This document shows, piece by piece, positions 35,424 through 64,000 of a stretch of DNA of 64,000 nt; positions within the stretch are counted from its first letter, which is position 1, and every line of letters starts with the position of its first letter. Made by a program: the position numbers and the translations under genes. Below the pieces are notes generated by a model, which saw only the letters and a program-made list of their open reading frames with translations, was not told the origin of the DNA and did no database searches. Where the stretch lies: positions 1 to 64,000 of the forward strand of contig CAJNDS010002492.1 in the NCBI GenBank assembly GCA_905221605.1, in the 5' to 3' direction. Origin of the DNA: Symbiodinium natans. Lineage: Eukaryota; Sar; Dinophyceae; Suessiales; Symbiodiniaceae.

Positions 35424-35455
<32 letters not shown>

Positions 35456-37130: not shown

Positions 37131-37179
37131 ATAATAAGGAATCATATAAGAATCCCTGAAAAAATCTTATCCAAACTCC

Positions 37180-48643: not shown

Positions 48644-48702
48644 CTTGGTAGCCCAGAAACCACCTTTTGTTCAGGTTACCCCCTTTTTTAGTTAGCACAG
48701 GG

Positions 48703-48816
48703 GACGCCTGTCGGTAAGATGGTCCCAAAACCCATACCCCCCCCTACGCTTTTACACCTATAACAAATAAGCCTAATCAAATAGGGAGTTCTAAAAACCA
48801 TCTTCCCAACAGGCGT
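48703..48816. mobile_element. MITE with 20-bp inverted ends
   Basis: ACGCCTGTCGGTAAGATGGT at the left matches ACGCCTGTTGGGAAGATGGT from the other strand at the right, 18 of 20. It lies in the intron just upstream of the first phased PH exon. Confidence 0.8.
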
Positions 48817-49025
48817 GGCCAGGTTGATAGAATTTATGGTAAATTTAGGGTTTCAGGGCTTGGGGGTGGGAAAGCCTGAAGCATCTGCCCTGCTGGGGCA
48901 CTTCATCCTCGGCTACCTCTACGAAGAGGTGCGCCAGACAAGTTTAATCTTTGGAGCTCTGCAAGTGCTCTGCAGTCACGTCGTGCATTAAATGCATCAG
49001 CCAAGAGCAAGTTTGAAAGTTTGTT

Positions 49026-49066
49026 GAAGCCATTTGGGTTTCAGCACCAAAGCATTTTGCCACTTG
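49026..49066 (+). other. Two relict spliced-leader-like sequences
   Basis: GAAGCCATTTGGGTTTCAG and AAAGCATTTTGCCACTTG lie in tandem 15-55 bases before an ATG. Both resemble the dinoflagellate spliced leader core (TAGCCATTTTGGCTCAAG). Such relicts mark genes that passed through a trans-spliced mRNA. The match is degenerate, but the pair recurs before the next two genes. Confidence 0.55.
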
Positions 49067-49080
49067 TGAGCCTTTGAGCA

Positions 49081-49347
49081 ATGGGTTACGAGCAGAACTA
49101 CAAGGTTCGGAGTGGCACACCAGAAGAGCTACACGACAAGTTCTGCGACGACGTTCATTTGAAGATTACGAAGGCACACTACAAGAGAAAGAGCAGGATG
49201 CGAAAGCTAAAGAAGTGGGAACCTTCCGACAGATACGATAAGTCTCTGCGGCACACTCTTCGTCGCGTCAAATACTGCCTAGCGACCGGCTCTCTCCTCT
49301 ACGAATACTTGATTGAGAGCAAACCAGAGAAGATGCTGGTGTATTGA
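49081..49347 (+). CDS. Small basic protein, 88 residues, unknown
   Basis: ATG to TGA without introns. The protein is rich in Lys, Arg and Tyr (KAHYKRKSRMRKLKKW) with no signal peptide or membrane helix. The basic character would suit nucleic-acid or ribosome binding, but no family is recognised. It is followed by a spacer that resembles the spacer after the next gene. The lack of introns and the leader relicts upstream suggest a retroposed gene. Confidence 0.6.
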   Translation: MGYEQNYKVRSGTPEELHDKFCDDVHLKITKAHYKRKSRMRKLKKWEPSDRYDKSLRHTLRRVKYCLATGSLLYEYLIESKPEKMLVY

Positions 49348-49368
49348 GCCGAGCAGTGCTGACCCTTT

Positions 49369-49502
49369 TGTGCAAGTGCTGACCTACCCTGTGCAGATGT
49401 AGTGTTTGCCTTGCGACCAAAACCTCGTACAGAAAAAAGCCCTTTTAGTACAGCCAAGGGCTACCACAAACCTTTGGAGAGAACACGAAAGCCAGTGAAA
49501 AG
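49369..49502 (+). repeat. Shared intergenic cassette, copy 1
   Basis: GTGCAGATGTAGTGTTTGCC, then AGTACAGCCAAGGGCTACCA, then CGAAAGCCAG, occur in the same order after the next gene (51,241-51,410). The proteins upstream are unrelated, so the conserved part is the spacer. Confidence 0.65.
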
Positions 49503-49590
49503 GTAGCTTTTCTGTTGCTTGAGCGTTGTTGTCACATTGTGCGTTCTTGCATCAGTTGAGACAAAGCATGAGCGACTTGTTTGCTTATCA

Positions 49591-49632
49591 GAAGCATTTT
49601 GCTTCAAACAAGTTGAAGGCATTTTGTCTTGA
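49591..49632 (+). other. Two relict spliced-leader-like sequences
   Basis: AGAAGCATTTTGCTTCAAAC and TGAAGGCATTTTGTCTTGAC lie 27-68 bases before the ATG of the ubiquitin-like fusion gene, the same arrangement as at 49,026. Confidence 0.55.
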
Positions 49633-49658
49633 CATACCTACCCTCGTCAGCTTCAGAG

Positions 49659-51050
49659 ATGGCTCCCTCCAGCTCTTCCAGCTCTTGTAGCTCTCCACGC
49701 GCTTTCTTGGAGAGCCTCGCAAGTGGTGAGACTACTCCTTCGTCGCTTCCTGACATCAACGAGGGCAACATCTGCATCAGGTATGCAGTTTGCGACTCTC
49801 GTCGTCCAGAAGGGACTATGGTGAGTGATGGTCAGTGGGTGCTCCGTGTCTCTACCAATGCGCGACCCTTGGTCGTGGCAGATGAGATTTACCAGCGCCT
49901 GATGAGGGACGACTTTTTCCTCATCAACTTCAGCGATTTTGAGTGGCAGGTGTCCTTTCTTTGGTGCGAGAGCTTCCCGTTTCCGAACTCCAGAACCTAC
50001 CCCCTCAACCCACGGACAGTCTTGGTTGATGGTGGCTATGTTGTGGTGCGTCTTGGTTTCAAGGATGCAGAGGCTTCTGCCGAGAACGAGGACACCGAAA
50101 GCGATGCAGAATCTTCTGCTGAGAACGAGGGCACCGAAAGCGATGCAGGTTCAGACACACCGAGTCTCTCTTGCTTCCTACCGTTGTCCTACTTGGAGGA
50201 CGGCTCTGACCTTTACAGCGATGATGAGGACACTCCTGAGGATGATGACGGCGCCTTCGTTGAGGTCAGGGACAACCACAATCGCCCTCGTCTTCATCTC
50301 AAGCGCATCGGGAGCCTTTGGAAGACCGTAGACAACCTGAAGGAGATGATTACGGAAGAGGTGCGAAACCTTGTGCCTTCCAGTCAGCCATCTCTGACCG
50401 TTTCGGACTTCAACCTTGTCCACAACGGCGTTGTGATGCAGAGCGACGAGTACATCGCCGACTTCTTGAACTACCCGACCGAGCGGAAGCTGGTGGTTCG
50501 GATGATCTTGAGGCTTAGAGGTGGTGGCAAAAAGGGTGTCAGAAACGATGCCACCAAGCAGAAGCAGAAGGAGAAGAAGGTTGAAAGCAAACTCTTGGCT
50601 GTCAGTGAGGGTCTGAAGTCTTCAACTGTGACTGCTGATGCCATTCCGTATTGCCTCGGTGTCAAAAACGACACTCGGAATGTGATTAGTGGAGCAGACA
50701 GCAATCCTCGTGAGACCATGAAGCACCTCCTAGAGTACAACTGCGTGGACAATCTCCAGAAAGCCTTTGACAAGTTGGACGAGGCTGGTGAGACAGACAA
50801 GAAGGTTGCCATCGCTTCTCACTCCTTGTTCGGTCCGAATGGCAACTCCTTCCACAAGCTCTATGCGGAGTTGGAGGTGATTTGGAGCACATCGCGCGTT
50901 GCCTTCCAGTACTTGTATGAGAAGTGCGATTTCAAAGATGTCAGGGAACTCAAGGACCTGATTAGGAGCGTAAGAGACGTGAAGATTGGGCAGTCTTTGG
51001 CACAGGCAGGATGTCTCAAACCCCCTAGGGTTAGCTTTCAAACCCCCTAG
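49659..51050 (+). CDS. Ubiquitin-like fusion protein, 463 residues
   Basis: The start is the ATG at 49,659 (MAPSSSSSS); the frame is open further upstream only through non-ATG codons. Residues 1-130 are an unknown N-terminal region with a Ser-rich start. About residues 138-170 hold two acidic repeats (AENEDTESDAESS and AENEGTESDAGSD). Residues about 205-288 form a ubiquitin-like domain that ends MILRLRGGG, the ubiquitin C-terminal signature. A Lys-rich linker (KKGVRNDATKQKQKEKK) and about 150 residues of unknown fold follow. In ubiquitin-ribosomal fusions a hydrolase cuts after LRLRGG; the same could release the C-terminal part here, which is an inference. The last eight codons and the stop lie in a 22-bp tandem repeat, so the original C-terminus may have been different. 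Confidence 0.75.
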   Translation: MAPSSSSSSCSSPRAFLESLASGETTPSSLPDINEGNICIRYAVCDSRRPEGTMVSDGQWVLRVSTNARPLVVADEIYQRLMRDDFFLINFSDFEWQVSFLWCESFPFPNSRTYPLNPRTVLVDGGYVVVRLGFKDAEASAENEDTESDAESSAENEGTESDAGSDTPSLSCFLPLSYLEDGSDLYSDDEDTPEDDDGAFVEVRDNHNRPRLHLKRIGSLWKTVDNLKEMITEEVRNLVPSSQPSLTVSDFNLVHNGVVMQSDEYIADFLNYPTERKLVVRMILRLRGGGKKGVRNDATKQKQKEKKVESKLLAVSEGLKSSTVTADAIPYCLGVKNDTRNVISGADSNPRETMKHLLEYNCVDNLQKAFDKLDEAGETDKKVAIASHSLFGPNGNSFHKLYAELEVIWSTSRVAFQYLYEKCDFKDVRELKDLIRSVRDVKIGQSLAQAGCLKPPRVSFQTP

Positions 51051-51146
51051 GGTTAGCTTTCAAACCCCCTAGGGTTAGCTTTCAAACCCCCTAGGGTTAG
51101 CTTTCAAACCCCCTAGGGTTAGGTTTCAAACCCCCTAGGGTTTAGC
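51017..51146 (+). repeat. 22-bp tandem repeat, six copies, overlapping a stop codon
   Basis: CAAACCCCCTAGGGTTAGCT starts at 51,017, 51,039, 51,061, 51,083, 51,105 and 51,127. The unit contains an inverted AACCCCCTAGGGTT and resembles two head-to-head heptamers. The first copy is coding and the stop is in the second. Confidence 0.95.
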
Positions 51147-51240
51147 CCATCAGGCATCTTCTTCTACAGCCCCAGCCGAAGCTCCTGTGGCGATGATGCC
51201 GTGAGCGCTTGAGTTCCGGCAGTGCAGTGTGCAGACCCTG

Positions 51241-51410
51241 TGCAAGTTTTGTGCAGATGTAAGTGTTTGCCCTTGCAAACTATTAATTATTAAGATTATA
51301 TGGCTCATACAGACGGCTGGACTAGCCCACCAGCGCTTGTACATGGAACTCTCCTCAACAGCCCGTTTGTACAGTTAAGGGGCTACGACAAACCAAGAAA
51401 GCCAGAACAA
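51241..51410 (+). repeat. Shared intergenic cassette, copy 2
   Basis: GTGCAGATGTAAGTGTTTGC, then TGTACAGTTAAGGGGCTACG, then AAGAAAGCCAG, in the same order as 49,369-49,502. Confidence 0.65.
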
Positions 51411-51505
51411 GAGTAGTGACAAACATCGCTGGTGAGCGCGTGTGCTTTCCTGCCCTAAACCTCAAACCAGCTTGTGCAGTTGAGAAGCCACGCGTGAGCT
51501 ACATC

Positions 51506-51545
51506 TGAAGCCGTTTTGGTGAATTCGTGGCATTTTGCCTGTAGG
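51506..51545 (+). other. Two relict spliced-leader-like sequences
   Basis: TGAAGCCGTTTTGGTGAATT and CGTGGCATTTTGCCTGTAG lie about 40-80 bases before the ATG of the 231-residue gene. Confidence 0.55.
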
Positions 51546-51583
51546 TTTCCAGCCCTAGACCTCCCTCGGCTTCTTTGAGATTC

Positions 51584-52279
51584 ATGGCTTCAGGCTCCCC
51601 TTCTACCGGCTTCGGCTTGTTCTTCAAGGCGTGGAAGCTCTACGTCCAAAATCGTCAGGAGCGCGAGACCGACGCCATCCTCAAGCTCCAAGCCGAGAAC
51701 CAAGCCCTCAGGGTAGCCATGCACAACATCGTTGAGGGTGGCTTTCAATCGGATGTGGTCTTCGGCGTCACCGCGGACATGATTGAGGAGCTGTACTACA
51801 GAGACTTCCACAGAATTCCTCCCACGCCCTCCTTCTTCACGAAGGCTGACGTAAAGGTGGTGAAGAAGGCTCTCATGTATGACGAGTTCGTGGAGCACGT
51901 CATCATTGAAGATTTCACCGCCTACTGCTTGAAGCGAGTTCATTCGGCTCTTGGCTTTCCGATTCAAGTTCTGTGGTGGCGCGAAAGCACCAAAGAGCTT
52001 TTGGCTCTCCAGCTCAATTTCGCGATTGACGAAGACCGCGAGTTTTTGGATTTGAATCTTAGTCAGCTTGAAGAGCAAGTTTGGGATGAGTGGGATGACA
52101 TGCTGACTGAGGATGGCTTAGACTTAGACTCAAAGATGCTGTTCCGCACCTTCCCGCAAGGGTACATCGGCAACTACACCGGTCCTCGTAACATTTCCCG
52201 TTACGAAGTGTTTGATGAGGACACTAATTTACAGTCTAGGGCTGAATTCCGTGCTTGTTTTGAAATGTTTTTCAGGTAG
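51584..52279 (+). CDS. Unknown protein, 231 residues, intronless
   Basis: The ATG at 51,584 is the first in frame. The protein has an amphipathic N-terminus with a predicted coiled coil at about 22-48 (RQERETDAILKLQAENQALR), then a mixed acidic/aromatic globular part ending RAEFRACFEMFFR. No signal peptide or membrane helix is seen. I do not recognise a family. The upstream leader relicts and spacer link it to the two genes before it. Confidence 0.65.
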   Translation: MASGSPSTGFGLFFKAWKLYVQNRQERETDAILKLQAENQALRVAMHNIVEGGFQSDVVFGVTADMIEELYYRDFHRIPPTPSFFTKADVKVVKKALMYDEFVEHVIIEDFTAYCLKRVHSALGFPIQVLWWRESTKELLALQLNFAIDEDREFLDLNLSQLEEQVWDEWDDMLTEDGLDLDSKMLFRTFPQGYIGNYTGPRNISRYEVFDEDTNLQSRAEFRACFEMFFR

Positions 52280-53044
52280 GGGGCTTCTGTAGCTCCCACA
52301 ATTCGCGACTGTATGAGTGCAGGTTTTGATGGTTGTCCCATGTTCCTTTGTAGCACAGAGAGCTCAGAGAGCTTCGTCGGACGAGGCTTCTTTGATGCCA
52401 AGCAGTACAGTGCAAATGCGAACATTGTGGATGCTGTTTAAATCCTTGCAGTTCCAACAAACGTTATGTCTCAACAACGACCGAGGCATCAGAAACTCAA
52501 GCCCAGAGTGGTGAAAAATCTTTGCACCCGCTATTCTGCAACCCTACCCCCAACCCTCCTAAGAATAAATCCTAAACCGCGCGTAACAGGTGAACGACTT
52601 CCAGGCGGACTTTGACCTCGGTGACTTCGTGAAGGTTCGTCCCTTTTAGGGTTTTTAGGTTTAGGGTTGTTAGGGGTTTCGCCTTTGAAGGCTTCTTCGG
52701 GAAAAGGATTGGCTCTGAGAGCCAAACAACCATCTCAGAACTGGAGCGCTGTGTCTTGCAGACTTTTAGGTTAGGGTTGTAGGGTTGTTAGGGGGCTTTA
52801 GGGTTCGCGCTCACAGAGTGAGCACGAGCACTTCGTGTTCTACAACCCCTAAACCCTTAAGCCCTAAGCCCTAAACCCTAAACTGGATTTGTTCCCTCTT
52901 CGGGAAAAGGATTGGCTCTGAAGAGCTGAGCGAACAACCATCACAGAACTGGAGCGCTGGGCATTCCAACTACTTAGGGTTATAGGGCTTTAGTTTTTGG
53001 GTTGTAGGGTTTATTGGCTACCGCCTTTCCGCTGACCCAACAAG
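52280..53044 (+). other. Gene-poor end of the host sequence with one small exon
   Basis: A 15-codon exon-like segment at 52,590-52,634 (VNDFQADFDLGDFVK) lies between CAG and GTTCGT. A block of about 65 bp (GGGAAAAGGATTGGCTCTGA through AACTGGAGCGCTG) occurs at 52,699-52,752 and again at 52,908-52,962. Heptamers are degenerate and end at about 52,885. Confidence 0.55.
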
Positions 53045-53110
53045 AGAAAACAAGTAAAAATAAAACATAAAAAATAAAAAATAAAAATAAAAAATAAACA
53101 TAAAAATGAT

Positions 53111-53140
53111 TAATACAATATTTTAAATATTATTGTATTA
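53111..53140. terminator. Perfect hairpin at the integrase stop codon
   Basis: TAATACAATA and TATTGTATTA flank a 10-base loop. The integrase stop (TAA, minus) lies inside the right arm. Similar AT hairpins sit at other viral gene ends, so this is likely a 3'-end signal. Confidence 0.5.
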
Positions 53141-54049
53141 AACTTTTAACAACTCGTGCCTTAAGTATGCCCTTTCGTTCCCCTCTACATAAAAATACTG
53201 TTGCCCCAGTTTCTTATCAATTTTTTCTATGGTGTAGCGGTTTTGTGTGAAATTGCCGACTCTCTCTTTTTCATTGGGTTTTCGTTTCCTCAGTATTTTA
53301 ACAGTGTCTCCAACATCCAGTTCAGGATAGATGCGATTCTTTTTAGCGTTCATGGACAACTTCAGTTTAACATTTAGCTCATTCTTCTTCTTACGGGCTT
53401 CTATGGGTTCCAAACCATGGGAGGAGTGTTTCATAGCATTGTTGTATGTTAATAAAATCTCATGTAAATAGTCACCCCATTGAATGTTTTGTTTACCCTT
53501 TTTCTCATCATTTTCAACCCTCTTGTAAAGCATATCCTTAAGTGTTCTTATCGCCCTTTCGGCGAATGCTGGGTGTCCTCTTGTTCTGTGTAGTTCTATA
53601 TTTTCATCCTTCAAGTAGTCTATAACACTTTGATTATTAAAGCTCCCTTCGTCGTCTATATAAATTAGTCGGGGCTTCCCATCCATCTTTTTTATGTTCT
53701 CCATAACACCTGCTAATATGTCCGGTGGCTGTTTGGATGAAATCGGCACCGCGTTCATATACTTACTAAACACATCTATGCATATCATCCCTACCCTAAA
53801 TTTTTGATTAGGTATATCATTAATAAAAAACAGATCAATTTGAAACTCATAATAGGCATTGGGAGCTACAAAGGAGTTTTGTCCTGTTGGCTTTCGCTTT
53901 TGCTCCACGTTTTTCCTAAAAAACTCGTTAACATCTTCCGCTGTTATACTCTTATCTTTCTTTCTTGCTTCTTGAAGCGTCCTAGCTTTACTGCCAAACC
54001 CCCCGCGGTCAAAATAAGTATCGTTAATAATATCTTGTTTAGAACTCAT
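53138..54049 (-). CDS. Retroviral-type (rve) integrase, 303 residues
   Basis: It probably catalyses insertion of the viral DNA into the host genome. Start MSSKQD at 54,049; the longer frame upstream is a run of Ile/Met. The catalytic triad is visible: D72 (FQIDLFF), D133 (YIDDEGSF) and E164 (HPAFAERAIRTL). D-E spacing is 30 residues, slightly shorter than the usual 35. An N-terminal helical part precedes and a basic SH3/chromo-like C-terminal part (DVGDTVKILRKRKPNEKERV) follows. It resembles Polinton and Ty3-type integrases. It lies last in a minus-strand pair, 44 bases after the replicase. The frame is intact. Confidence 0.88.
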   Translation of the reverse strand: MSSKQDIINDTYFDRGGFGSKARTLQEARKKDKSITAEDVNEFFRKNVEQKRKPTGQNSFVAPNAYYEFQIDLFFINDIPNQKFRVGMICIDVFSKYMNAVPISSKQPPDILAGVMENIKKMDGKPRLIYIDDEGSFNNQSVIDYLKDENIELHRTRGHPAFAERAIRTLKDMLYKRVENDEKKGKQNIQWGDYLHEILLTYNNAMKHSSHGLEPIEARKKKNELNVKLKLSMNAKKNRIYPELDVGDTVKILRKRKPNEKERVGNFTQNRYTIEKIDKKLGQQYFYVEGNERAYLRHELLKV

Positions 54050-54093
54050 TATAATAAACAAGATATTATTAATAATCATTTTTATTATCATAA

Positions 54094-57000
54094 TCATTTA
54101 GCACTGCAGTTACAGTAATGACAGTATGCTATACAATTATCTTTAACATGCGCTGTTTGATTATTTAGACGCTGGGCTGTTAGATTACTCACCACCTCCC
54201 CGCATTTAATATCAAACTCAAACCCGCAACCACACTTGTTACATCTGCTGTTCATCCTATCAAACAGCCATTTCACATCAATATAATCGGCATCTTCTAT
54301 AGTCCTACCTGCCTTCAGGTCTTGTATCTTATAGCGCTTAACCTTGTTATCTAAGTATCGCATCAACGTAGTCTCGTTTAGTTCATCATCTCTCTCGGAT
54401 GCTTTATAGAACATAACCTTATTAATATCGGTAGCGCGTGTGATGCTCGTATACAGCCACTCTCTCGTTATTAAGTGTTGCTTCTGCCACTCGTGTATCG
54501 TTATGGATTTATCAACCGAGTTACCTTGTGACGAATGACAGGTGGCACAGTACGCATATCTAAAATGCTCATCTAATGTAGATATACTGGTGTTATATAA
54601 CTGATTGGTTTTTATGTTCTGTAGCACAACCCCTTCGGCTCCGATGCTCTTAATCTGATACTTAAAGTTGACATTGAAGGTCGTCCCCCCTTCCTTCTTA
54701 TACTTTCTGCATATCATGTGCTCACCCACTTCATACTTCAGCTTCTTGCCGAGGTTCTTTCGTATCGTGTTTGATACATACAAGCACCGTTTATTCGTAT
54801 ATGCTATGTTGTGCTCGGATGCCATCATATCGTCAGTTGTTTTAAAGTGTTTCTCCACAATCTGCTCAATGGGCAGTTTGTGTTTCCAGATATCATCATA
54901 TATATGCTTAAGTTTTATTTTGTCGCTCCTCTTCTTAAGTCGCTTTGATATTTTAAGATAAATCCGGTATTTAAATATTTGGTTAATGCATTCGTTCAGG
55001 TATGTCTCGTGGTCTCGTGTGTTGGTTATATCCTTTATTGGTGGCAGTTGTTTCCCGTCGGAGGTGGCTATTATGATTTTATCCTTGGCGTGTTTCTTAA
55101 CGAACTCCCTTATCTTATTTAATACATACATCCCTCCCATACCCACCTCGTCAAACACTATGCAGTTATACTTACTATGGTCAAACGCTTCCATTTTATC
55201 TCCCTTCTCCATAGGTATGGCGAAGAACTTGTTATTAGTTGTGGCATCGGTTTGGGTGTTTTGTAGCAGTTGGTTGGTTGGACACACAAACAGCACGTTA
55301 TAACCCAAATTCCTCATATACTCTCCTATGTAGCTCTTACCCGAACCAGCGTATTTAGCTTTTATGATTACTGGGTTCTGTTCCACTATTTGCCGACATA
55401 TCGCCTGAGTATCCCATTCATCCTCTACCATTACCCTTTCGTTCTCGTAGGTAGGTATTTCCACGAGCTCGTTGGGTTTCATTTCGTAATCGTCGGTTGG
55501 GGCTACAAACAGCTTTCCTTTCTCAACTCTCCAGCCCCCGATGTCCTTTGAGAAGTTAAGTAGTTTCTTAGCCTTTTTTAGGTCGGCGGTCTTGATCAGA
55601 AAGGCGTCGGTCTTAACATAATTGACCTGAACCCCTGCCTCTACCAACTTGTAGTAGTCCTCATACATCCTGAAGTTATGCATCTGTAGAAGCAGTTCCT
55701 TAATGTATTTAAATCCGTTTGTTAGATTGGCTGTGTCGCTTACAGTTAACGTGTAGTATTTTGCCTCGGTTTCCTTCTCTACTGTTTCAAACCCTTCATC
55801 ATCATCATCATCATCATCCTCTATCTCCTCATAATGTCCGCTGATTTTGTTAATCCTTCCTCCGTGTATGGTTTGATGATATAAAGCCTCGCTTAAGGTG
55901 TCAAACACGAGGCTTTTCTGTGCCTTGTTCGTCCCCTTCTCTAGTAGTCCTATGTTTACGTTAGCTATCAGTTTTTTGACTTTATTGTCTTCCATCTCTG
56001 TGTGTGATATGGTGGTATCCCACAGTTTCTCGGTGATGCTTTTATAATTGACCTTGTGAGTGTGTGAGGGGCATTTGTAGTACAAAATCTCGCATTTTCC
56101 GCGAAAGTGCTTTAAAAACATACCGTAGATTAACAGATAGGGCTTGTTAAAGAACATCTTAGCCTCCTCCACAGCCCTCACGAGATAAAGAGTCAAATCA
56201 TTAAAATCATGTTTATCGTAAGGCTTCCAGATATCAAACTCGCAGAACACGGGCACCTCAACAATCTGGTTATAAGCCCAAGTGTAAGCCTTTCTCCTGT
56301 CAATCTCTACACAATGCTCACGAAATAGATAGTAGGTTTTTATATCAGTCTCTAGGTCCCTATTATAATGAATCTGTGGTATTCTGCCACACGGTGCTAT
56401 CGTGTGGCACTGCTTAAAGATCTCCATATCGGATTCATTATAATAGGATTTATGCAGTGGGTTAAACAGCGCCTGATTGAAATCATACATCGCCCTTGAC
56501 ATGTTATTATAAGTCTGTTCGGCTTCTACTGTTATGCTTCCGTCCATTGAGTCCTTAATCAGGTTCTGTGTCTTTACTTTATACGATATGGTTTTATACT
56601 GCTTCTTTGATACTCTCACTTTAAACCTGAAATTAAGCTCCGAAACCACCCCGGCAGTAAATTTAATATATGGTTCGTATCCCGCCTGTTTGCTTTGATA
56701 GTATAACTCTGCCAGGTTGTTTCTTCTGTATATCATCGTGTATTCATCGTGTTCGGTGTGCTTGTTGATATCGTCCATGCTGTCTATCATCCTGCACTCA
56801 ACCGGTGCATCGCGCTCGTTTATGTGGTAGTCGCTTGATGCCTTAACGTTTATGTCGTGCTCTCGCTCTACTGCCATCAACCCCCTCAGCTTTTTAAGAT
56901 CTGTATTTATAGTATAAATATGGTCGTTCTTCACTAGAGCATAGAAGGTTTTATAATTATGGTCTCGTTTAGGCGGGTCGTATGAAAAAATTAGGTTCTC

Positions 57001-57978
57001 CATATAGTCATATATCCGAGCAGTTATGCGATACTCTCTAAACACCTTGGACATATCCTCTATAGATGCTCCCACGTTTTTGAATTCATCCTCTGTGGTT
57101 CCTATCAGGTTAAGCACCGTCTCTCTGGTCATCTGTTGCTTTCTCTTCTCTCCCATGAGGCTGTCCTTGTAGAAATCAGTCAGGGTATTTATCCAGCACT
57201 CGTGTTTAACATAGTGCTTGACCCTTATGGCTTCGGCGAAGGTTTCGTATTCGGGGTCCAGTTCTGTTTCTATGAACCTGTGATATATACCTATGTTATC
57301 GGAGTTGCGCAGTTTCCTCTTTTTGGGGTCGTACTTCTCACCATCACCATCTACCACAGTTGCACTGTAAATCTTTAGGGCGTCAAACCCATATGATAAA
57401 AACATCTCTATAATTCCATCTATGTCTTTGTCTTGCCTTAAGATGCTCACCATCTTAAAGAATTTAGCGCTGTCATCTTTTTTTATAATCTTTTTCCTAA
57501 CCTCCTCCTCTATGTCCTTGGTCGTCTTTACATTAGCCACTACAGGCTCTGTTTTGAAAGGATATAGGGGTTTGCCACTACTGTCTCTAAATGACGGTTT
57601 CATTTTGTTCTTCTTTTCGTCCCCGTAGGTAAAGAACATAACCTCAAGCGAGTATGTCCTTTGGGCTGTTCGTTTGCGCCTTTCGGTGTTCTCCTTCTTA
57701 CTGGCTTCCATTCTTTCCCCTAGTGGCTTTTTTGACTCGTGGCTCTCCATCAGCTTCTCATAGTTTGCCCTCGCCCGTTCCTTGTCCTTCTGGGTGGTAG
57801 CCGTTACCAGCTCGTTTATCATCTTAGACGCGGTGCTGACCTGCGCTATCTTACGGTCCTCGTAGAGTTCTATTACATCTCTGACCTTTTGCTTGGTCGT
57901 CGGCGTTAATCTGTTTCTGTTAGCCCTCAGTGTTCCCTCTAATGCTTTTATGTTTCTTTGGATAGATTTGCGTGTCAT
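54094..57978 (-). CDS. Replicase: PolB-like region, SF1 helicase and C-terminal zinc cluster, 1294 residues
   Basis: It probably replicates the viral genome. The helicase is clear: Walker A (YAGSGKSYIGEY, about residue 880), Walker B (CIVFDEVGMGG, about 943), motif V-like HSSQGNSVDKS (about 1150) and motif VI TSITRATD (about 1179), as in PIF1/RecD-type SF1 enzymes. The polymerase part is weaker. EIDRRKAYTWAY (about 558) resembles PolB motif A, KLIANVNIG (about 673) motif B, and YVKTDAFLI (about 789) motif C with KTD in place of DTD. An acidic run (EIEDDDDDDDEGF) lies between B and C. The C-terminus has CNKCGCGF...CHYCNC, a zinc-cluster pattern. Residues 1-250 are helical and basic, with no visible exonuclease motif. 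The frame is unbroken across 3.9 kb. Confidence 0.78.
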   Translation of the reverse strand: MTRKSIQRNIKALEGTLRANRNRLTPTTKQKVRDVIELYEDRKIAQVSTASKMINELVTATTQKDKERARANYEKLMESHESKKPLGERMEASKKENTERRKRTAQRTYSLEVMFFTYGDEKKNKMKPSFRDSSGKPLYPFKTEPVVANVKTTKDIEEEVRKKIIKKDDSAKFFKMVSILRQDKDIDGIIEMFLSYGFDALKIYSATVVDGDGEKYDPKKRKLRNSDNIGIYHRFIETELDPEYETFAEAIRVKHYVKHECWINTLTDFYKDSLMGEKRKQQMTRETVLNLIGTTEDEFKNVGASIEDMSKVFREYRITARIYDYMENLIFSYDPPKRDHNYKTFYALVKNDHIYTINTDLKKLRGLMAVEREHDINVKASSDYHINERDAPVECRMIDSMDDINKHTEHDEYTMIYRRNNLAELYYQSKQAGYEPYIKFTAGVVSELNFRFKVRVSKKQYKTISYKVKTQNLIKDSMDGSITVEAEQTYNNMSRAMYDFNQALFNPLHKSYYNESDMEIFKQCHTIAPCGRIPQIHYNRDLETDIKTYYLFREHCVEIDRRKAYTWAYNQIVEVPVFCEFDIWKPYDKHDFNDLTLYLVRAVEEAKMFFNKPYLLIYGMFLKHFRGKCEILYYKCPSHTHKVNYKSITEKLWDTTISHTEMEDNKVKKLIANVNIGLLEKGTNKAQKSLVFDTLSEALYHQTIHGGRINKISGHYEEIEDDDDDDDEGFETVEKETEAKYYTLTVSDTANLTNGFKYIKELLLQMHNFRMYEDYYKLVEAGVQVNYVKTDAFLIKTADLKKAKKLLNFSKDIGGWRVEKGKLFVAPTDDYEMKPNELVEIPTYENERVMVEDEWDTQAICRQIVEQNPVIIKAKYAGSGKSYIGEYMRNLGYNVLFVCPTNQLLQNTQTDATTNNKFFAIPMEKGDKMEAFDHSKYNCIVFDEVGMGGMYVLNKIREFVKKHAKDKIIIATSDGKQLPPIKDITNTRDHETYLNECINQIFKYRIYLKISKRLKKRSDKIKLKHIYDDIWKHKLPIEQIVEKHFKTTDDMMASEHNIAYTNKRCLYVSNTIRKNLGKKLKYEVGEHMICRKYKKEGGTTFNVNFKYQIKSIGAEGVVLQNIKTNQLYNTSISTLDEHFRYAYCATCHSSQGNSVDKSITIHEWQKQHLITREWLYTSITRATDINKVMFYKASERDDELNETTLMRYLDNKVKRYKIQDLKAGRTIEDADYIDVKWLFDRMNSRCNKCGCGFEFDIKCGEVVSNLTAQRLNNQTAHVKDNCIAYCHYCNCSAK

Positions 57979-58127
57979 ACAGTAAGCTAGATTATAATTA
58001 TATAGTTGTCATTTCTTTAAGACGTTTCTTCCTTGAATGGTTGCTTATACTTTCATTTTAGGTATTTTCCCTTTCTGCGTTTAAGGTATTTAAAGGAATA
58101 AACATATATATACTATTATTGAAAATA
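57979..58127. promoter_or_regulatory. Divergent promoter region between replicase and small ORF
   Basis: About 150 bp between two divergent ATGs. CATATATATACTATTATT precedes the plus gene, similar to TATTATATATACTT before the capsid gene. The replicase side has ATTATAATTATATAG. These are TATA-like by eye only. Confidence 0.4.
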
Positions 58128-58406
58128 ATGGTAAAAATATCCAAATATCACGATATAACAAAGGATTTAAACCCTGATGACTACACAATGGACGAAATCA
58201 ATAAAAATCTGGCGATATACAACAGGTTGTATTACTTGAAGATGAAACAACGGGAGGGGTGGATAGAAGACAAGAGAGCAAAAATAAGAAGGGCATACCG
58301 TCAAAAGGCAATAGCGCAAATGATAAAAGACGACAATATAAATGTTAATGAGCTTTCCAGTCCTTATGAACTTTTGAATGCACTGACGAGAAACCCAAGT
58401 AAATAA
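58128..58406 (+). CDS. Small basic helical protein, 92 residues, unknown
   Basis: Start MVKISKYHD at the ATG 58,128. It is Lys/Arg-rich and helical (NLAIYNRLYYLKMKQREG, KRAKIRRAYRQKAIAQM). It is transcribed away from the replicase and converges on the next gene, from which it is separated by a perfect hairpin. A DNA-binding or early regulatory role is possible but nothing specific is seen. Confidence 0.65.
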   Translation: MVKISKYHDITKDLNPDDYTMDEINKNLAIYNRLYYLKMKQREGWIEDKRAKIRRAYRQKAIAQMIKDDNINVNELSSPYELLNALTRNPSK

Positions 58407-58443
58407 TAATAATATGTTTTTATTAAAAATATTATTATTATTT
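58401..58443. terminator. Perfect 15-bp hairpin between convergent genes
   Basis: AAATAATAATAATAT and ATATTATTATTATTT flank a 13-base loop, overlapping the stop of the plus gene. It could serve as a bidirectional 3'-end signal. Confidence 0.6.
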
Positions 58444-58462
58444 GTTTCCTTTTTAATATTTA

Positions 58463-59299
58463 TTATGAGCCTACGGACTGAACACTTGTTCGCCTTGAAC
58501 TGGTTCTGCTTCTTATGTATTCTATGGTTTCCTGTGAGCGCCTTGAACTTACAACACTTTGCGGGGGACTTGGTTCATCAACATATTCTATCGTACGATT
58601 ACTTGGAACTGAACTTTGCACTGATACAGGTGGAGAGGAATGAATGTGTTCACTTAAGGCTTCCTCTTCAATAGGTAATAATGCACTTCTGTTTGAACTT
58701 CTGCGAGAACTTGATGATGATGAAGGCTCATAAGATTTTTTAACATTCATTGGCAAACTATCATCGCTCTCTTCAGTTTGTTGTTTCTCTACAGGCGGTT
58801 CACTCTCCTCTTCTTGTTCTATTTGTTGCCTTCTACTTCTCATGTCGCGAATGCCTCGCGAGGCTTCTGCCGAAGCGTCCTCTCTTTCCTCTGCGAATTC
58901 ATCTTCTCCAAACATGGCATCGTAAACTCTACGCATTACTGATTTTTTCTGTGGTTGTTCGCGTTCTCGTTCAGTTTCCTTTTCTTTCTCAATACTTTTT
59001 ATACTTGATACGCTTTCGTCTGTTTGAGTCTGTTTTACTTCTTCTTCTATTGTTTTCATGCTTTCACTTTCTGTTATGCTTGGTGTTTCGTTGAACACAT
59101 CCGTTTGTGTTCCTTTATCTGGGTTCTCATTCATTAATATTGTTTTCTTATCGTATTTACCTAAATCAAAGTCATCAAAATCAACATCATCTAATAATAA
59201 ACCTTGTTGTGTTCTTTTCTGCTTCTCTGGTAGTATTCTTAATCTGTGTGTTCTCACTTCCCTTGCAATTTCTTCGTATGTGGGGCGCAATCTTAACAT
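58463..59299 (-). CDS. Viral protein with N-terminal LRLRPTYEE motif, 278 residues, unknown
   Basis: Starts MLRLRPTYEEIAREV, a motif shared with the neighbouring gene at 59,407. The rest is low in hydrophobics: acidic and Ser/Gln/Glu-rich with Arg-Ser patches (RRSSNRSAL, RRSQETIEYIRSRTSSRR) and a central RRVYDAMFGEDEF. It is probably largely disordered. Position next to capsid genes suggests a virion or assembly role. It contains one copy of the GCCTCGCGAGGC palindrome (EASRGIRD) also used in the zinc-finger gene. Confidence 0.7.
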   Translation of the reverse strand: MLRLRPTYEEIAREVRTHRLRILPEKQKRTQQGLLLDDVDFDDFDLGKYDKKTILMNENPDKGTQTDVFNETPSITESESMKTIEEEVKQTQTDESVSSIKSIEKEKETEREREQPQKKSVMRRVYDAMFGEDEFAEEREDASAEASRGIRDMRSRRQQIEQEEESEPPVEKQQTEESDDSLPMNVKKSYEPSSSSSSRRSSNRSALLPIEEEALSEHIHSSPPVSVQSSVPSNRTIEYVDEPSPPQSVVSSRRSQETIEYIRSRTSSRRTSVQSVGS

Positions 59300-59406
59300 T
59301 TTATATTAATATATTATACTGGTAAAAATGATTTTGCTATTGCTGTTGCTCCTGCCTTTGCTAATGTTTCTACTCCTGCTTTTGCTCCCGCTACTGCTAT
59401 GTCTCT

Positions 59407-60318
59407 TCAAGGTGTTGATGATGATGCTGGTTGTGAAGGAACCAATTCTCCTGTTCCACTTGATGATGCCGATTGTTCTACCCTCTTGGATTTTACACGT
59501 CTTCGCTCTCTTTTAAACAGTCGTTTTTTACGATGTAATTTAGCGCTGTCAAATTCGGCATTCCATTCGTCTAATTCTTTGTGACCCTCTATGATTGATA
59601 TTAGGTATTGCTTCTTTTTCTGGTCTGTTGGTATTTTATTTAATAAATCCACCATTTCGTCTGTTAATAAGTCTCTAACAAACAACTGAAACATTAGTCC
59701 TCTATAAGTAACGCTATCATCATTGAAGACCTTTTCAGGGTCAAAACCGTGCGTGTATGCTACCTTTTGTTCTAATGCTGTTACTTCTTCTGCGCTCTCA
59801 TCATCATTTTCTTCTGGAGTATCCATTGAATGAACTTCAACACCTGCTGGTAATGACTGATGATGAACATCGTCTAAGTCTTCCTTAACATCTTCTACGT
59901 GCCTTCTTTGTTCTGCTAGATCCTTCACTCTTCTCAATGCATCGTCTAAATTCCGAATGTGGTCTGGATACCCCTCGTCTTCACTTTCATATGCTTCTGC
60001 CGGTGTATCGTATCCACTTGTTGTTGCACTTGTTTGAATTCCTGCTACAGCAGTTGATACGCCATTCATAACACCGTGATGATTCAACTGTGCTCTTCGT
60101 AAATCATTCTTGACTTTGTCCTCTTCCTGCTTCTTCAATCCTAAAAAGTCAATGTTATCAAACTGACTTCCGAACTGATTGTTTCTAAATAATGTTGCTC
60201 TCCTATCTATCATTTTATCTAACGGTGGTCTGTTTTCGTCACCTTGGCTTTCAATCATACCTACCATTTCATCATAGGTTGGCCTAAGTCTTAACTCTGC
60301 TTTTAATGTTTTAATCAT
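59407..60318 (-). CDS. Viral protein with N-terminal LRLRPTYDE motif, 303 residues, unknown
   Basis: Starts MIKTLKAELRLRPTYDEM, paralogous at its N-terminus to the gene downstream. The middle is acidic and coiled (RNLDDALRRVKDLAEQRRH). A helical globular part (YRGLMFQLFVRDLLTDEMVD) is followed by basic residues (LHRKKRLFKRERRRVKSKR), then a Ser-rich tail ending at TGA (59,407-59,409). The frame stays open for 30 further codons to TAA (59,314-59,316), giving an Ala-rich amphipathic tail if the TGA is read through. The function is unknown; a structural or DNA-associated virion role is plausible. Confidence 0.7.
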   Translation of the reverse strand: MIKTLKAELRLRPTYDEMVGMIESQGDENRPPLDKMIDRRATLFRNNQFGSQFDNIDFLGLKKQEEDKVKNDLRRAQLNHHGVMNGVSTAVAGIQTSATTSGYDTPAEAYESEDEGYPDHIRNLDDALRRVKDLAEQRRHVEDVKEDLDDVHHQSLPAGVEVHSMDTPEENDDESAEEVTALEQKVAYTHGFDPEKVFNDDSVTYRGLMFQLFVRDLLTDEMVDLLNKIPTDQKKKQYLISIIEGHKELDEWNAEFDSAKLHRKKRLFKRERRRVKSKRVEQSASSSGTGELVPSQPASSSTP

Positions 60319-60328
60319 ATAATATATA

Positions 60329-60649
60329 TTATATTATTTCTGCTATTATATTTTTTAATTCTTGTTGTTTTTTCATAAGTTCCTCTTTTGTTCTTACTGG
60401 CATCATTGGACGCTCTAATTGTCTGTTAACATCATCCAGTTGACCCTGATAAAGACTCTTCTTCTGATGTTGCACCCAGTCATTACGCAAAGCAACATTT
60501 TTACCTCTATTTTCTGCTTCTTCAATTCTTAATTTCATATCCTCTAAATATTTCCTACGTGATGCTACTCCGAACGTATCTTCAACATCGTAATATTGTT
60601 GAACCTGTGGCATTCTTTTAAACTCTGGTTTGCTTTTGAACATACTCAT
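60329..60649 (-). CDS. Small helical viral protein, 106 residues
   Basis: Starts MSMFKSKPEFKRMPQVQQ and is almost entirely charged helix (RRKYLEDMKLRIEEAENRGK, MKKQQELKNIIAEII). No motif is recognised. It lies in a minus-strand run between the zinc-finger gene and the LRLRPTY genes with 10-35 base gaps, which suggests co-regulation as late genes. Confidence 0.65.
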   Translation of the reverse strand: MSMFKSKPEFKRMPQVQQYYDVEDTFGVASRRKYLEDMKLRIEEAENRGKNVALRNDWVQHQKKSLYQGQLDDVNRQLERPMMPVRTKEELMKKQQELKNIIAEII

Positions 60650-60685
60650 TATTAATAATATTAGATTAAAAATATTATTAATAAT
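60648..60685. terminator. Perfect 15-bp hairpin after the zinc-finger gene
   Basis: ATTATTAATAATATT and AATATTATTAATAAT flank an 8-base loop, touching the stop of the upstream gene and the start of the next. The core ATTATTAATAAT recurs at 54,065-54,076 between replicase and integrase. Confidence 0.55.
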
Positions 60686-61395
60686 CAGAACATTTTTGAC
60701 TTAAAACTGTTTATTTTTTGCATATGTTCCTCTCGTTTTGCTCTTCTTATTTCTTTATAAGATGCCTCTAATATTTCTCTTGCTGTTAGTTGCCGTGGTT
60801 GTTCTTCCATTCTAACGGGTTTATACTGTGTTTTAACCTCAATTGGATCACTATATTGGACGCTCGTCAGAGCCTCGCGAGGCTTCGCGACGCTCGTCAG
60901 AGCCTCGCGAGGCTTCGCGACGCTCGTCAGAGCCTCGCGAGGCTTCGCGACAACTTCATTTTGTTTAGGTTGCTCTTGCTTTGAATATTTTGCTTTCATC
61001 TCTTCTTCAATTTCTTTCCTTAATTTTTGCTCCACCTTTGCCCCATAACTGGCTTTCTGCCTATTTACTGGTAATGTTTCTGTTGGTTGACCCTTACAGT
61101 AATGTGGGTGGGTGTTTCTTAGGCTCTTGGGCAACATCTTTTTGTTACAGGCTTCACATTCAACCAGTTCCACTACCTTAACGCTTCTGGCTAGTTTCTT
61201 TGGTTGTGCTTTAGGTTTTGCTTTTGCTGTTGGTTGCGTTTGTTCTGTTGTTTGTTCAACAGGTGCTGTTGTTGTCTCTTCTTGTTTGATTGGTTCAGTG
61301 GGTTCTTCTTCATTGGTTGTTTCAATAATTTCATTTGCTACTGGTTCGGTTGCTTCTTCAGTTTTATCATCGGTAACTGCTTCCTCACTGCTCAT
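60685..61395 (-). CDS. Zinc-finger viral protein with in-frame decapeptide repeat, 236 residues
   Basis: Starts MSSEEAVTDDKTEEATEP. The acidic, Thr/Glu-rich N-terminal 65 residues look disordered. A single zinc finger follows: C80, C83, H96 and C100 (VECEACNKKMLPKSLRNTHP). Next are a helical basic part and three exact copies of VAKPREALTS, encoded by a 30-bp GC-rich repeat at about 60,860-60,950. The C-terminus is Arg/Lys-rich (SYKEIRRAKREEHMQKIN). Single CxxC...HxxxC fingers of this sort occur in many PLV and virophage proteins. It may act in DNA binding or late regulation. Confidence 0.7.
   Translation of the reverse strand: MSSEEAVTDDKTEEATEPVANEIIETTNEEEPTEPIKQEETTTAPVEQTTEQTQPTAKAKPKAQPKKLARSVKVVELVECEACNKKMLPKSLRNTHPHYCKGQPTETLPVNRQKASYGAKVEQKLRKEIEEEMKAKYSKQEQPKQNEVVAKPREALTSVAKPREALTSVAKPREALTSVQYSDPIEVKTQYKPVRMEEQPRQLTAREILEASYKEIRRAKREEHMQKINSFKSKMF
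60858..60950. repeat. 30-bp GC-rich repeat with GCCTCGCGAGGC palindrome, three copies
   Basis: GACGCTCGTCAGAGCCTCGC with GAGGCTTCGC repeats three times inside the zinc-finger gene. The palindrome AGCCTCGCGAGGCTT stands out in AT-rich DNA. A fourth, solitary copy of the core is at 58,853-58,866 in another gene, in frame. Confidence 0.9.
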
Positions 61396-61432
61396 TATTA
61401 CTATAGTCTAGATTTTTCTATTTAGATATTTA

Positions 61433-62269
61433 TTATCCCCTGAAAAATGTTAAGGTAAATGAGATGTCCACCCCATTTAAATTTATAACTTGGTTCAGAT
61501 GGTTGGTTAATCTGAAATTTAGCCTTCTTAATAATTTGTTAGAGACATCAATATAATCAACACTGCTTAGCTCATTATCATTTATAACGCCAAGATATGG
61601 AACTGTTACGTTTATTTTCTTTACTATTGATGAATTACCTGCTACTGTTAATTGGTTGTAGTTGCTAATTTCGTTACAATGTAAATACAAACTCTTGAAG
61701 GGGACAAGGTCAACAAAGTTTGTAGTGTAAGGTGCCACATTAGTATACGCATCAGTTGCTGGTGTTGTGTTACCGATTACTCTGTTTATTGAACTTAAAT
61801 TATTCACGTCAACAGGGTCTGAAAATGAACCAGCTAATGGTGCTATTTCCCCATCAGTCAGAAGAACAAAAATAACAGTTGCATAATTAGAGCTGACTGT
61901 AAATTTGTTAGTTGATGTGTTGTAGCTTAAAGAATATGTGTTAGGTCTGTCCACTGTATCAACCAATAAGTTAATTGCAATTTGTATTGTTTGCGCTAAA
62001 TCAACCGCTGTGTAGTTACCTTCCGGGATTGTTACTTTACGATAAGTAATACCTGCTATGACACCTGGAGGAATGACTTGATGCATCCAATAAATATTGT
62101 TGTTTGTGCTGTTTATTGAATACCACGAGTGGGGAATGCTTACCTCATGTATTTGACATAACATGTTCTCATCTAACTGAACTGTTTCAGGTAAATCAAT
62201 AGTAAATTCCGATGGTGTACCACTCACTTTATAACTGCTATCAATATAAACCTTTTTGAATTTGAGCAT
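61433..62269 (-). CDS. Candidate minor capsid (penton-like) protein, 278 residues
   Basis: Start MLKFKKVYIDSSYK at 62,269. The N-terminus DSSYKVSGTPSEFTIDLPET and the beta-rich body (IPPGVIAGITYRKVTIPEGN, YSLSYNTSTNKFTVSS) end in NGVDISFTLTFFRG. This layout (short N-terminal strand with a TPSEF-like motif, then a single jelly-roll-like body) resembles minor capsid proteins of PLVs and virophages. It sits divergently to the lipase and close to the major capsid gene, as expected. The assignment is by pattern and position; a structural search would settle it. Confidence 0.6.
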   Translation of the reverse strand: MLKFKKVYIDSSYKVSGTPSEFTIDLPETVQLDENMLCQIHEVSIPHSWYSINSTNNNIYWMHQVIPPGVIAGITYRKVTIPEGNYTAVDLAQTIQIAINLLVDTVDRPNTYSLSYNTSTNKFTVSSNYATVIFVLLTDGEIAPLAGSFSDPVDVNNLSSINRVIGNTTPATDAYTNVAPYTTNFVDLVPFKSLYLHCNEISNYNQLTVAGNSSIVKKINVTVPYLGVINDNELSSVDYIDVSNKLLRRLNFRLTNHLNQVINLNGVDISFTLTFFRG

Positions 62270-62311
62270 TATAGTATTAATGAGATAAATTAATTTATAA
62301 ACTATTTTATA
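62270..62311. promoter_or_regulatory. Short divergent promoter between minor capsid and lipase genes
   Basis: Only 42 bases separate the two ATGs. The sequence is almost pure A/T (ATAGTATTAATGAG, AATTTATAAACTATTTTATA), so both promoters must overlap. Confidence 0.45.
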
Positions 62312-62953
62312 ATGCACAAACATAAGCGAAGAAATGAAGGTATTTTATATGAACCTCCTAAAGCAAGAAATAAATTACATAATGAAGTTAGAGATGAATT
62401 AAATGAAAATGAAACATTTTTAACTGATACTCAAGGATTAAGACTTGCGTACGAAAACCCAGAAGGCATTTATCAAAATGGTAGCATTTTATACATTGCT
62501 GGAACGAAAAGCGGGAGAGATGTATATGATGATTTAAAATTACCGTTTTATCAAACAAGAAACACGAAGAGATACAAAGACGTTGATAAATTTATTAAAG
62601 ACGGAACTATAGAGGTTGATGGTAAGAAACTCACAGGTGTAACTGATATTATTAGTCATAGTTTAGGTTCAGCGGTAGGACAACAAATAAATAATGATTA
62701 TGGTAATATTTTTAGAAGTAGGAGTTATGGTTCTCCTTTTGTTTCAGGACAACAACCAGATGAGACAGGGACAAATTTAAGAATACGAAAGGCTGGTGAT
62801 GTCGTTAGTATGTTTGATAGAGGAAGCACAACATTAAATAGAGGAACATTAAACCCACTTGATAATCATAGTTATGCTGATATTGCTAATGTTCACAATA
62901 AACCAGGCAACTTACCTATAACAACAGATGAGTTTATGCAACAATTTAATTAA
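62312..62953 (+). CDS. Lipase-like alpha/beta hydrolase (class 3 type), 213 residues
   Basis: The nucleophile elbow is ISHSLGSAVG with S117. RSYGSPFVSG about 20 residues later, D163 (RKAGDVVSMFD) and H186 (NPLDNHSYAD) complete a triad in the order and spacing of class 3 lipases. The first Gly of GxSxG is replaced by Ser. No signal peptide is seen. Lipases of this kind occur in PLVs and could help membrane crossing at entry or release, which is an inference. All catalytic residues are present. Confidence 0.75.
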   Translation: MHKHKRRNEGILYEPPKARNKLHNEVRDELNENETFLTDTQGLRLAYENPEGIYQNGSILYIAGTKSGRDVYDDLKLPFYQTRNTKRYKDVDKFIKDGTIEVDGKKLTGVTDIISHSLGSAVGQQINNDYGNIFRSRSYGSPFVSGQQPDETGTNLRIRKAGDVVSMFDRGSTTLNRGTLNPLDNHSYADIANVHNKPGNLPITTDEFMQQFN

Positions 62954-62972
62954 TTTCTCAATAATATTAATA

Positions 62973-63164
62973 ATGTTTGCTTATAAATCTAGCACTTATG
63001 AAAAGTTAGAGAAACCAAAACCAGATAAAAAATTCAAACAGAACAGTTATGAAGAAATACGTAAACTTGTTGAAGATAATGAGGGGAATGACGTAGTGAA
63101 AGATATTAAGAATAAGAAGAAAAATAATAAAGAAATTTCATATAATTTCAAATTATTTGATTAA
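62973..63164 (+). CDS. Small Lys-rich protein, 63 residues
   Basis: Start MFAYKSSTYEKLEKPKPD at the ATG 62,973, 19 bases after the lipase stop. It is strongly basic and hydrophilic (KDIKNKKKNNKEISYNFK). No family is recognised. It lies between lipase and capsid on plus and is probably co-expressed. Confidence 0.55.
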   Translation: MFAYKSSTYEKLEKPKPDKKFKQNSYEEIRKLVEDNEGNDVVKDIKNKKKNNKEISYNFKLFD

Positions 63165-63189
63165 ATATAATATTAACAATTATATTTAA
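63161..63189. terminator. Perfect 11-bp hairpin at the small ORF stop
   Basis: TTAAATATAAT and ATTATATTTAA flank a 7-base loop. The stop TAA at 63,162-63,164 lies in the left arm. The next gene's TATA-like run starts right after it. Confidence 0.5.
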
Positions 63190-63194
63190 TTAAA

Positions 63195-63218
63195 TTTCTA
63201 TTTATATTATATATACTT
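63195..63218 (+). promoter_or_regulatory. TATA-like sequence before the capsid gene
   Basis: TTTCTATTTATATTATATAT is followed by ACTT and the ATG. TATATATACT also precedes the gene at 58,128, so it may be a viral late-promoter motif. Two cases only. Confidence 0.4.
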
Positions 63219-64000
63219 ATGGAATCGTTCAGCCCAGAGGATATCCTCATTGACAACCTGTCATTTAAATTAAACAAAGGTAGTTCATATATAACTGATA
63301 GAAGAAGTGTTACATTTTGGCCTTCTGGTTCAAATATCTATAAACCTACAAGTGGTAACCGTGTATTGAAATTTTCATTAAACGCTGAAGATAATGCTTG
63401 GTTAGACCCTCAATCAGTAAGAATTTTCTTTACACTACAAAATCTTGACGCTGGAGCATTTAATAACAAACTCCGTCCATTATCTCCTCCTTATAGCTTC
63501 TTCAGACGAATGAGAATTATTGCTGGTAATCAGGTTGTTGAAGACTTTGATAATTACAACCGAGTTCATCATATGTTCTCTAAAATGATGTCCCAAGGAG
63601 CACGAAAAGATGAATCAAATGAAGGGTTTGGTTATCGATATGATGACGAAATTAAAACTCTCGTTAATGACGGTGACACAAGACTAAAATATGAAGTTAA
63701 TGGTTTAACTTGTCAAGGCTTTAAGGATAAAATGATTGTTGGATTTAAACCATTATGTGGTTTATTCAGTCAGTTTAAATATTTACCTTTAAAGTATATG
63801 GGAAATTTAACAATTGAATTAGAATTGGTTACTAATGCTACTGATTGTGTAATTGACCCTACAGATGTTACAACGGCAGATGCTGTAGGAAATAGGTTTG
63901 TAACTGACGTTAATCCTGCCACAGAAGCAGACGCTGAATTTAGAAATACAAGCACTGATTGGGAAATTAATAATGCTCGTGTTGTTTGTGATGTTTGCAC
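63219..64000 (+). CDS. Major capsid protein (double jelly-roll), 3' end cut off
   Basis: It runs from the ATG at 63,219 to the window edge, 260 codons and still open. The N-terminus MESFSPEDILIDNLSFKLNK and the strand pattern (RSVTFWPSGSNIYKP, NRVLKFSLNAEDNAWLDPQS, VRIFFTLQN, RRMRIIAGNQVVEDFDNYN, YLPLKYMGNLTIELELVTNA) match the first jelly roll of PLV-type major capsid proteins, which form the trimeric hexon-like capsomers. The usual length is 500-650 residues, so about half is outside. No stop or frameshift is seen in the visible half. Confidence 0.82.
   Translation, partial: MESFSPEDILIDNLSFKLNKGSSYITDRRSVTFWPSGSNIYKPTSGNRVLKFSLNAEDNAWLDPQSVRIFFTLQNLDAGAFNNKLRPLSPPYSFFRRMRIIAGNQVVEDFDNYNRVHHMFSKMMSQGARKDESNEGFGYRYDDEIKTLVNDGDTRLKYEVNGLTCQGFKDKMIVGFKPLCGLFSQFKYLPLKYMGNLTIELELVTNATDCVIDPTDVTTADAVGNRFVTDVNPATEADAEFRNTSTDWEINNARVVCDVC

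Follow-up and report, generated by a model that had tools for sequence, protein, structure and literature searches.

An endogenous Polinton-like virus and its GC-rich accessory module in the genome of Symbiodinium natans

At the right end of the stretch of Symbiodinium natans DNA analyzed here (the window: positions 1 to 64,000 of contig C2180, which is 395,724 bp long in an assembly of 759,417,921 bp and 2,543 contigs), GC content falls sharply from about 0.50 to 0.36 at position 53,045 and a dense block of virus-like genes begins. The locus raises the question of whether these genes belong to an integrated virus, to a transposon or to an artifact of assembly, and of where the element that carries them begins and ends. 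Our analyses indicate that it is very probably a complete endogenous Polinton-like virus (PLV; phylum Preplasmiviricota), one of a large integrated family in the Symbiodinium genome. Terminal inverted repeats (TIRs) and a 5-bp target duplication place the element between window position 48,690 and C2180 position 70,622, an extent of 21.9 kb. Among dinoflagellate PLVs it is ordinary in kind, with a strange accessory gene.

Ends of the element

TIRs were located by searching copies of the element for inverted repeats. The TIR of the copy on contig C791 (174 bp, arms 100% identical) was then matched to the window and to the right end on C2180, giving a left TIR of 173 bp at 48,690–48,862 (plus strand) and, beyond the window, a 174-bp partner at C2180:70,449–70,622; the element as a whole has the termini AGTTAGC...GCTAACT. 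These two arms are identical at 169 of 173 aligned bases, with the four mismatches and a single gap all confined to one short cluster. Arm identity in other copies was 99.7% over 573 bp (C2467), 99% over 201 bp (C1923), 97% for TIRs of 684 bp (C180), 95% over 174 bp (C1869) and 92% over 302 aligned columns (C2323). Target duplications of 5 bp, read by eye, were found in six of the seven elements tested: TAAAC (C791), CTTTC (C1869), GGTAG (C1923), CTTTT (C2467), CTGTT (C2323) and, in the window element, TTTTT, which lies within a T run and is weak alone.

Because the TIRs and the duplication place the ends at 48,690 and 70,622, the GC step at 53,045 is not an insertion border, and since the true left end is at 48,690, 4.4 kb of supposed host sequence belongs inside the element. 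To the right of the window, GC returns to host composition near 70.4 kb. An earlier reading of the window from its letters alone (the sequence-only reading) had drawn the left border at 53,045, which was wrong. Its identification of an endogenous PLV is supported by the TIRs, the target duplications and the several insertions at different sites, and the terminal repeats and duplication that it proposed to look for are present. The suggestion of a young insertion receives mild support from the near identity of the TIR arms, and the idea of an inducible virus that could act against larger viruses is conjectural. That reading had also raised, against itself, the prospect of a chimeric assembly in which a viral contig was wrongly joined to a host contig. 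A false join could produce a sharp GC step such as that at 53,045, but here the step falls within the element, whose real termini bear TIRs and a 5-bp duplication, and C791 and C1869, inserted at other sites, show the same step in their interior; we regard a chimera as scarcely credible.

Two further accounts of the left side were considered and rejected. Truncation of the element at 53,045 does not agree with TIRs that enclose 48,690–53,045, nor with outer flanks and duplications that differ between copies. Copying of the window locus into C791 by segmental duplication had been suggested by an apparent common flank, but this flank falls within the TIR-bounded element, and the sequences outside it and the target duplications again differ.

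Gene content and constraint among copies

Between 53,138 and 64,000 the coding density is 94%, and the longest open frame spans 1,304 codons, compared with at most 202 among 200 Markov shuffles; the AT-rich viral gene block is thus beyond chance. From the left, the element carries the accessory module, an integrase, a replicase, five open reading frames (ORFs), a penton-like gene, a lipase-like gene, the major capsid protein (MCP) gene, a fibre gene, an A32-type packaging ATPase gene and three small ORFs. The integrase (53,138–54,097, minus strand) is of the rve type. The replicase (54,094–57,978, minus strand; 1,294 residues) joins, in a single frame, N-terminal domains, a protein-primed PolB palm, a following SF1 helicase and a C-terminal four-cysteine finger, the palm-helicase arrangement of Tlr1-type pPolB-S1H proteins. 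Upstream of the palm, Cys261 and His353 are invariant (110 of 110) and may belong to a vOTU protease domain. The alignment to phi29 polymerase begins at phi29 residue 3, and the replicase may retain a remnant exonuclease domain. Searches of PDB sequences with the replicase and MCP alignments returned nothing useful.

The late genes extend across the right border of the window. The MCP gene (63,219–64,652, plus strand; 477 residues) lies inside the window from 63,219 to 64,000, and its product is predicted to be a double-jelly-roll protein. Beyond the window are a fibre gene with a Peptidase_S74 chaperone (64,707–67,001) and the packaging ATPase gene (67,521–68,312, minus strand; Pox_A32, E 5.6e-10, 39.5 bits against a cut-off of 22.8), after which the three small ORFs extend to 70,368. 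On the left of the MCP gene, a 278-residue protein (61,433–62,269, minus strand; start as used by most listed relatives) is probably the minor capsid (penton) protein, to judge from gene order. It has 309 relatives at E ≤ 1, of which 120 were listed; two of four relatives scanned passed the Pfam DUF5901 cut-off and two missed it, and the window protein gave no match. A 213-residue protein (62,312–62,953, plus strand) carries SHSLG, GSPF, GD and NHSY residues, present too in two other copies, which we take to be marks of class-3 lipases; it gave no profile or PDB match. The five ORFs between replicase and penton-like gene are a small one of 92 residues (58,128–58,406, plus strand) and four on the minus strand, of 278 (58,463–59,299), 303 (59,407–60,318), 106 (60,329–60,649) and 236 (60,685–61,395) residues.

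The genome was searched with the replicase, and 36 of 435 candidate places were scored (38 rows, two loci having two rows each). There are at least 36 replicase loci in the 759-Mb genome, at least 33 of them without an in-frame stop, and at least 31 of the 36 are stop-free and reach to within three residues of the query end. Ratios of nonsynonymous to synonymous divergence (dN/dS) were computed by the Nei-Gojobori method with our own script, comparing the window element with C791, C1869, C1923 and C2467 where these were covered; values are absent or partial for several ORFs that the retrieved sequence covers in part or not at all. The integrase gave 0.01–0.07 (C791 and C1869 only; against C1923, C2467, C180 and C911 synonymous divergence, dS, was saturated or undefined), the replicase 0.11–0.15, the MCP 0.03–0.07 in four close copies (319 of 477 residues compared for C1923 and 208 for C2467) and the ATPase 0.03–0.05. 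The penton-like gene gave 0.10 (one copy), the lipase-like gene 0.13–0.14 (two copies, one in part) and the 278-residue ORF at 58,463–59,299 0.13–0.25 against six copies. Least constrained among the large viral genes was the fibre, at 0.31–0.36. With C180, a more distant copy, dN/dS was 0.10 for the replicase, 0.15 for the MCP, 0.02 for the ATPase (in part) and 0.28 for the fibre. Close copies thus show strong purifying selection on their capsid and packaging genes.

The copies also differ in relatedness from one gene to the next. For the pair C2180 and C791, dS ranges from 0.04 (a 120-residue ORF) and 0.08 (integrase) up to 1.13 (lipase), and C1869 is near for the MCP (dS 0.11), whereas for the ATPase (0.72) none of the other three close copies is as far away. 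Since the order of relatedness shifts in this way, the element family shows gene-by-gene mosaicism, as expected of recombining viruses.

These observations bear on whether the elements are self-synthesizing transposons that spread within the nucleus only, with capsid genes as passengers. High copy number in one genome, TIRs with target duplications, and the failure to find a relative in viral_contigs with the MCP fragment, the penton-like protein or the MCP alignment would all suit such a transposon. However, the MCP and ATPase genes, needless for replication inside the nucleus, are among the most constrained (0.03–0.07); the S74 fibre is the least constrained large viral gene (0.28–0.36 with C180 included), as a receptor-facing protein might be; and mosaicism likewise speaks for a virus. 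We therefore consider a purely intranuclear transposon improbable. Under the preferred reading of an endogenous PLV, the integrase would insert a linear viral DNA whose ends are capped by protein, the PolB-helicase fusion would copy that DNA through protein priming, and the A32 ATPase, capsid, penton and fibre would build and fill particles. Such particles could infect anew and undergo recombination with relatives; the viral cycle, and not transposition alone, would then be the main source of new copies.

Several points weigh against reading the locus as a complete and functional PLV. No target duplication was found in C180 at the ends chosen for its 684-bp TIRs. The integrase matches Pfam rve (E 0.0015) and the NCBIfam IS481 transposase family (8.9e-9) below both curated cut-offs, although the label is supported by the presence of target duplications. 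The double jelly roll of the MCP is seen in a predicted model of a relative (P0150) that is 68% identical to the window fragment, and that model is weak, with a mean predicted local distance difference test score of 54 and values below 50 in the last third. The penton and lipase identities are putative. Purifying selection speaks for a lineage that functioned in the time separating the copies and is not proof for the window copy, and the viral cycle and its particles are predicted from the genes. The integrase, replicase, penton-like, lipase-like and MCP genes proposed in the sequence-only reading are present, with unequal support. Its intact frames hold for the recognized core genes; a small ORF found beside the integrase in C1869 is missing from the window copy. 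Of the two genes that it proposed to look for past 64,000, the packaging ATPase is there, and no capsid maturation protease was recognized among the ORFs scanned with Pfam, from which divergent ones could escape.

The GC-rich accessory module

Between the left TIR and the internal GC step lies a module of host-like GC (about 50%; 48,863–53,045) that is common to C2180, C791 and C1869. The latter two carry it at the same place, in separate insertions with different flanks and target duplications, and C1869 is without about 0.5 kb of it. The first of its two ORFs (49,659–51,050, plus strand; 463 residues) encodes a stretch ending in LRLRGGGKK and then a variable C-terminal part; the second (51,584–52,279, plus strand; 231 residues) belongs to no known family. 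Among 24 blocks aligned with C791, 13 are 96–100% identical, seven 88–94% and four 60–66%. These last four adjoin one another (about 50,486–51,145, covering part of the accessory gene and a repeat array), and C791 and C1869 are 97–100% identical to each other there. At 60–66% identity to two copies amid surroundings mostly 92–100% identical, the 50,486–51,145 block has the appearance of a segment exchange; the part after LRLRGGGKK seems, from the alignments, to have been exchanged between old alleles.

A genome-wide search with the 463-residue ORF (13 of 13 candidates scored) gave five matches, each within or next to a PLV: C2180, C791 and C1869 themselves, C2323 (32%, residues 286–450) and C2078 (38%, residues 239–309). 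The C2323 match lies within TIRs with a 5-bp duplication, between TIR and integrase, and adjoins an integrase (63%) and a replicase (43–47%); that of C2078 adjoins a replicase (43%). Because the gene matches only in or beside PLVs, we assign the module to the elements and not to the host.

It might instead be host DNA, or a host transposon, that became nested by chance in an ancestral copy and has no viral role. We hold this unlikely while giving it real weight. Its composition is host-like, with GC at third codon positions of 0.64 and 0.66 in the two ORFs compared with 0.17–0.51 for viral genes in the window, and its constraint is far weaker than that of the viral genes, with a dN/dS of 0.53 for the 463-residue ORF (exchanged block included) and 0.86 between copies for the 231-residue ORF. 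Furthermore, C1923, C2467 and C180 showed none of the module ORFs in their left arms, which carry GIY-YIG-like (by eye) and further small ORFs in their place. The distant relatives on C2323 and C2078 match different halves of the 463-residue ORF. Against a chance origin, that gene has no match away from PLVs in the 759-Mb genome; the relative of its C-terminal half (29–32%) occupies the same TIR-integrase interval in the divergent element on C2323; all three close copies retain the open frames; and telomere-like heptamers are sparse around the module (14 in 48,000–54,000, compared with about 13 per kb over 1–53,040). Recent capture of the module from a host gene was rejected, the search of this genome having found no host paralogue; its origin may lie elsewhere.

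If the module belongs to the PLV, the 463-residue gene could encode a viral ubiquitin-like effector or a self-processing protein, written in host codon style for use, for example, in the integrated state. This proposal is doubtful. The product matches no Pfam family and the ubiquitin-like label was given by eye alone; this lack of profile support, together with distant relatives that match different halves, lowers the odds for an effector. No description of the gene turned up in the PLV literature, in which no search was aimed at it.

A tandem array of a 22-bp repeat (51,016–51,142; 5.8 units) overlaps the end of this gene and recurs in the left arms of C1923, C2467 and C180. Present in the left arm of four elements, it was found nowhere else in 225 kb of G000 loci or in the window, and it could be a regulatory or replication signal. 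The array sites are window 51,016–51,142, L055 2987–3074, L057 7283–7370 and L059 8776–8907, and three of the four arrays have the core CCCTAGGG. Loci L055, L057 and L059, copies without the module, have on their left side ORFs that look by eye like free-standing GIY-YIG endonucleases. The telomere-like heptamers TTTAGGG/CCCTAAA, scattered through host DNA, number 685 in 1–53,040 and 2 in 53,041–64,000.

Relation to known elements and significance

The sequence-only reading held that PLV integration in dinoflagellates is little described, which the literature does not support: as far as the available parts of these papers show, Bellas et al. 2023 (PMC10120064) and Haro et al. 2025 (PMC12721341) already describe it, the former reporting 2,535 capsid genes from Polarella glacialis along with a group of capsids named 'Dino', the latter PLVs of Oxyrrhis. 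The elements of Bellas et al. are alike in their many integrated copies (theirs of 15–30 kb), in having TIRs in about half of high-quality cases, and sometimes in GC contrast. The PLV of Oxyrrhis marina (OmPLV) is likewise a dinoflagellate PLV with a helicase-PolB fusion, AT-rich relative to its host, with TIRs and many copies. According to the same portion of PMC12721341, however, its helicase is N-terminal, whereas that of the window element is C-terminal; it has a tyrosine recombinase in place of an rve-type integrase, no target duplication in place of 5 bp, and no recognized minor capsid protein; and many of its genes are broken, whereas most replicase frames here are open. The P. glacialis polymerase shown there is roughly half as large as the Oxyrrhis fusion, hence smaller than the 1,294 residues of the window replicase.

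A closer likeness in replication genes is offered by the Tlr1 element of Tetrahymena and other pPolB-S1H PLVs (PMC11071308), which, in the text available, combine an rve integrase with a fusion of protein-primed PolB to a C-terminal SF1 helicase. Their C-termini are described as bearing GIY-YIG or HNH domains, in contrast to the four-cysteine finger here, and the window element has, in addition to its replicase, an S74 fibre and the GC-rich module. Mavirus-type virophages share, in the sources at hand, an rve integrase, a PolB with at most a remnant exonuclease and a double-jelly-roll capsid, and the mavirus polymerase is the third-ranked BFVD match of the replicase; the fused SF1 helicase sets the window element apart from them. 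From Polintons in the strict sense it departs in its target duplications: an rve integrase is present, but the duplications of its family are 5 bp, and the consulted part of PMC12220804, which treats cryptophyte PLVs, names 6 bp as the typical length, with 5–6 bp for PLVs. From similarly partial texts, Maverick elements enriched for 5-hydroxymethyluracil are reported in Breviolum (PMC11071213) and PLVs in Karenia (PMC13037468). The replicase alignment matched 38 loci in viral_contigs, in the helicase part only (one of them, L001, phage-like by its ORFs), and the phage collection held no match to the MCP fragment.

Elsewhere in the window, 35,000–38,000 consists of AT-rich low-complexity repeats (GC 0.31–0.40) whose open frames resemble repeat translations, not viral genes. 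An ORF at 3–716 (minus strand) encodes a PAN domain (Pfam, 8e-7) and is probably a host exon. Protein-search entry P0001, marked as window-encoded, is listed on a contig of 243,897 bp, compared with 395,724 bp for C2180. No Rfam families or tRNAs, and no dinoflagellate spliced-leader relic (up to three mismatches), were found in the window.

In sum, part of this element resembles host DNA, and GC steps can thus mislead on insertion borders; the locus also points to a PLV-associated gene family that composition-based searching would miss. With exact ends, independent insertions and measured selection, these dinoflagellate PLVs open the question of virus or transposon to numbers, and by that measure their capsid and packaging genes are constrained as much as their enzymes.

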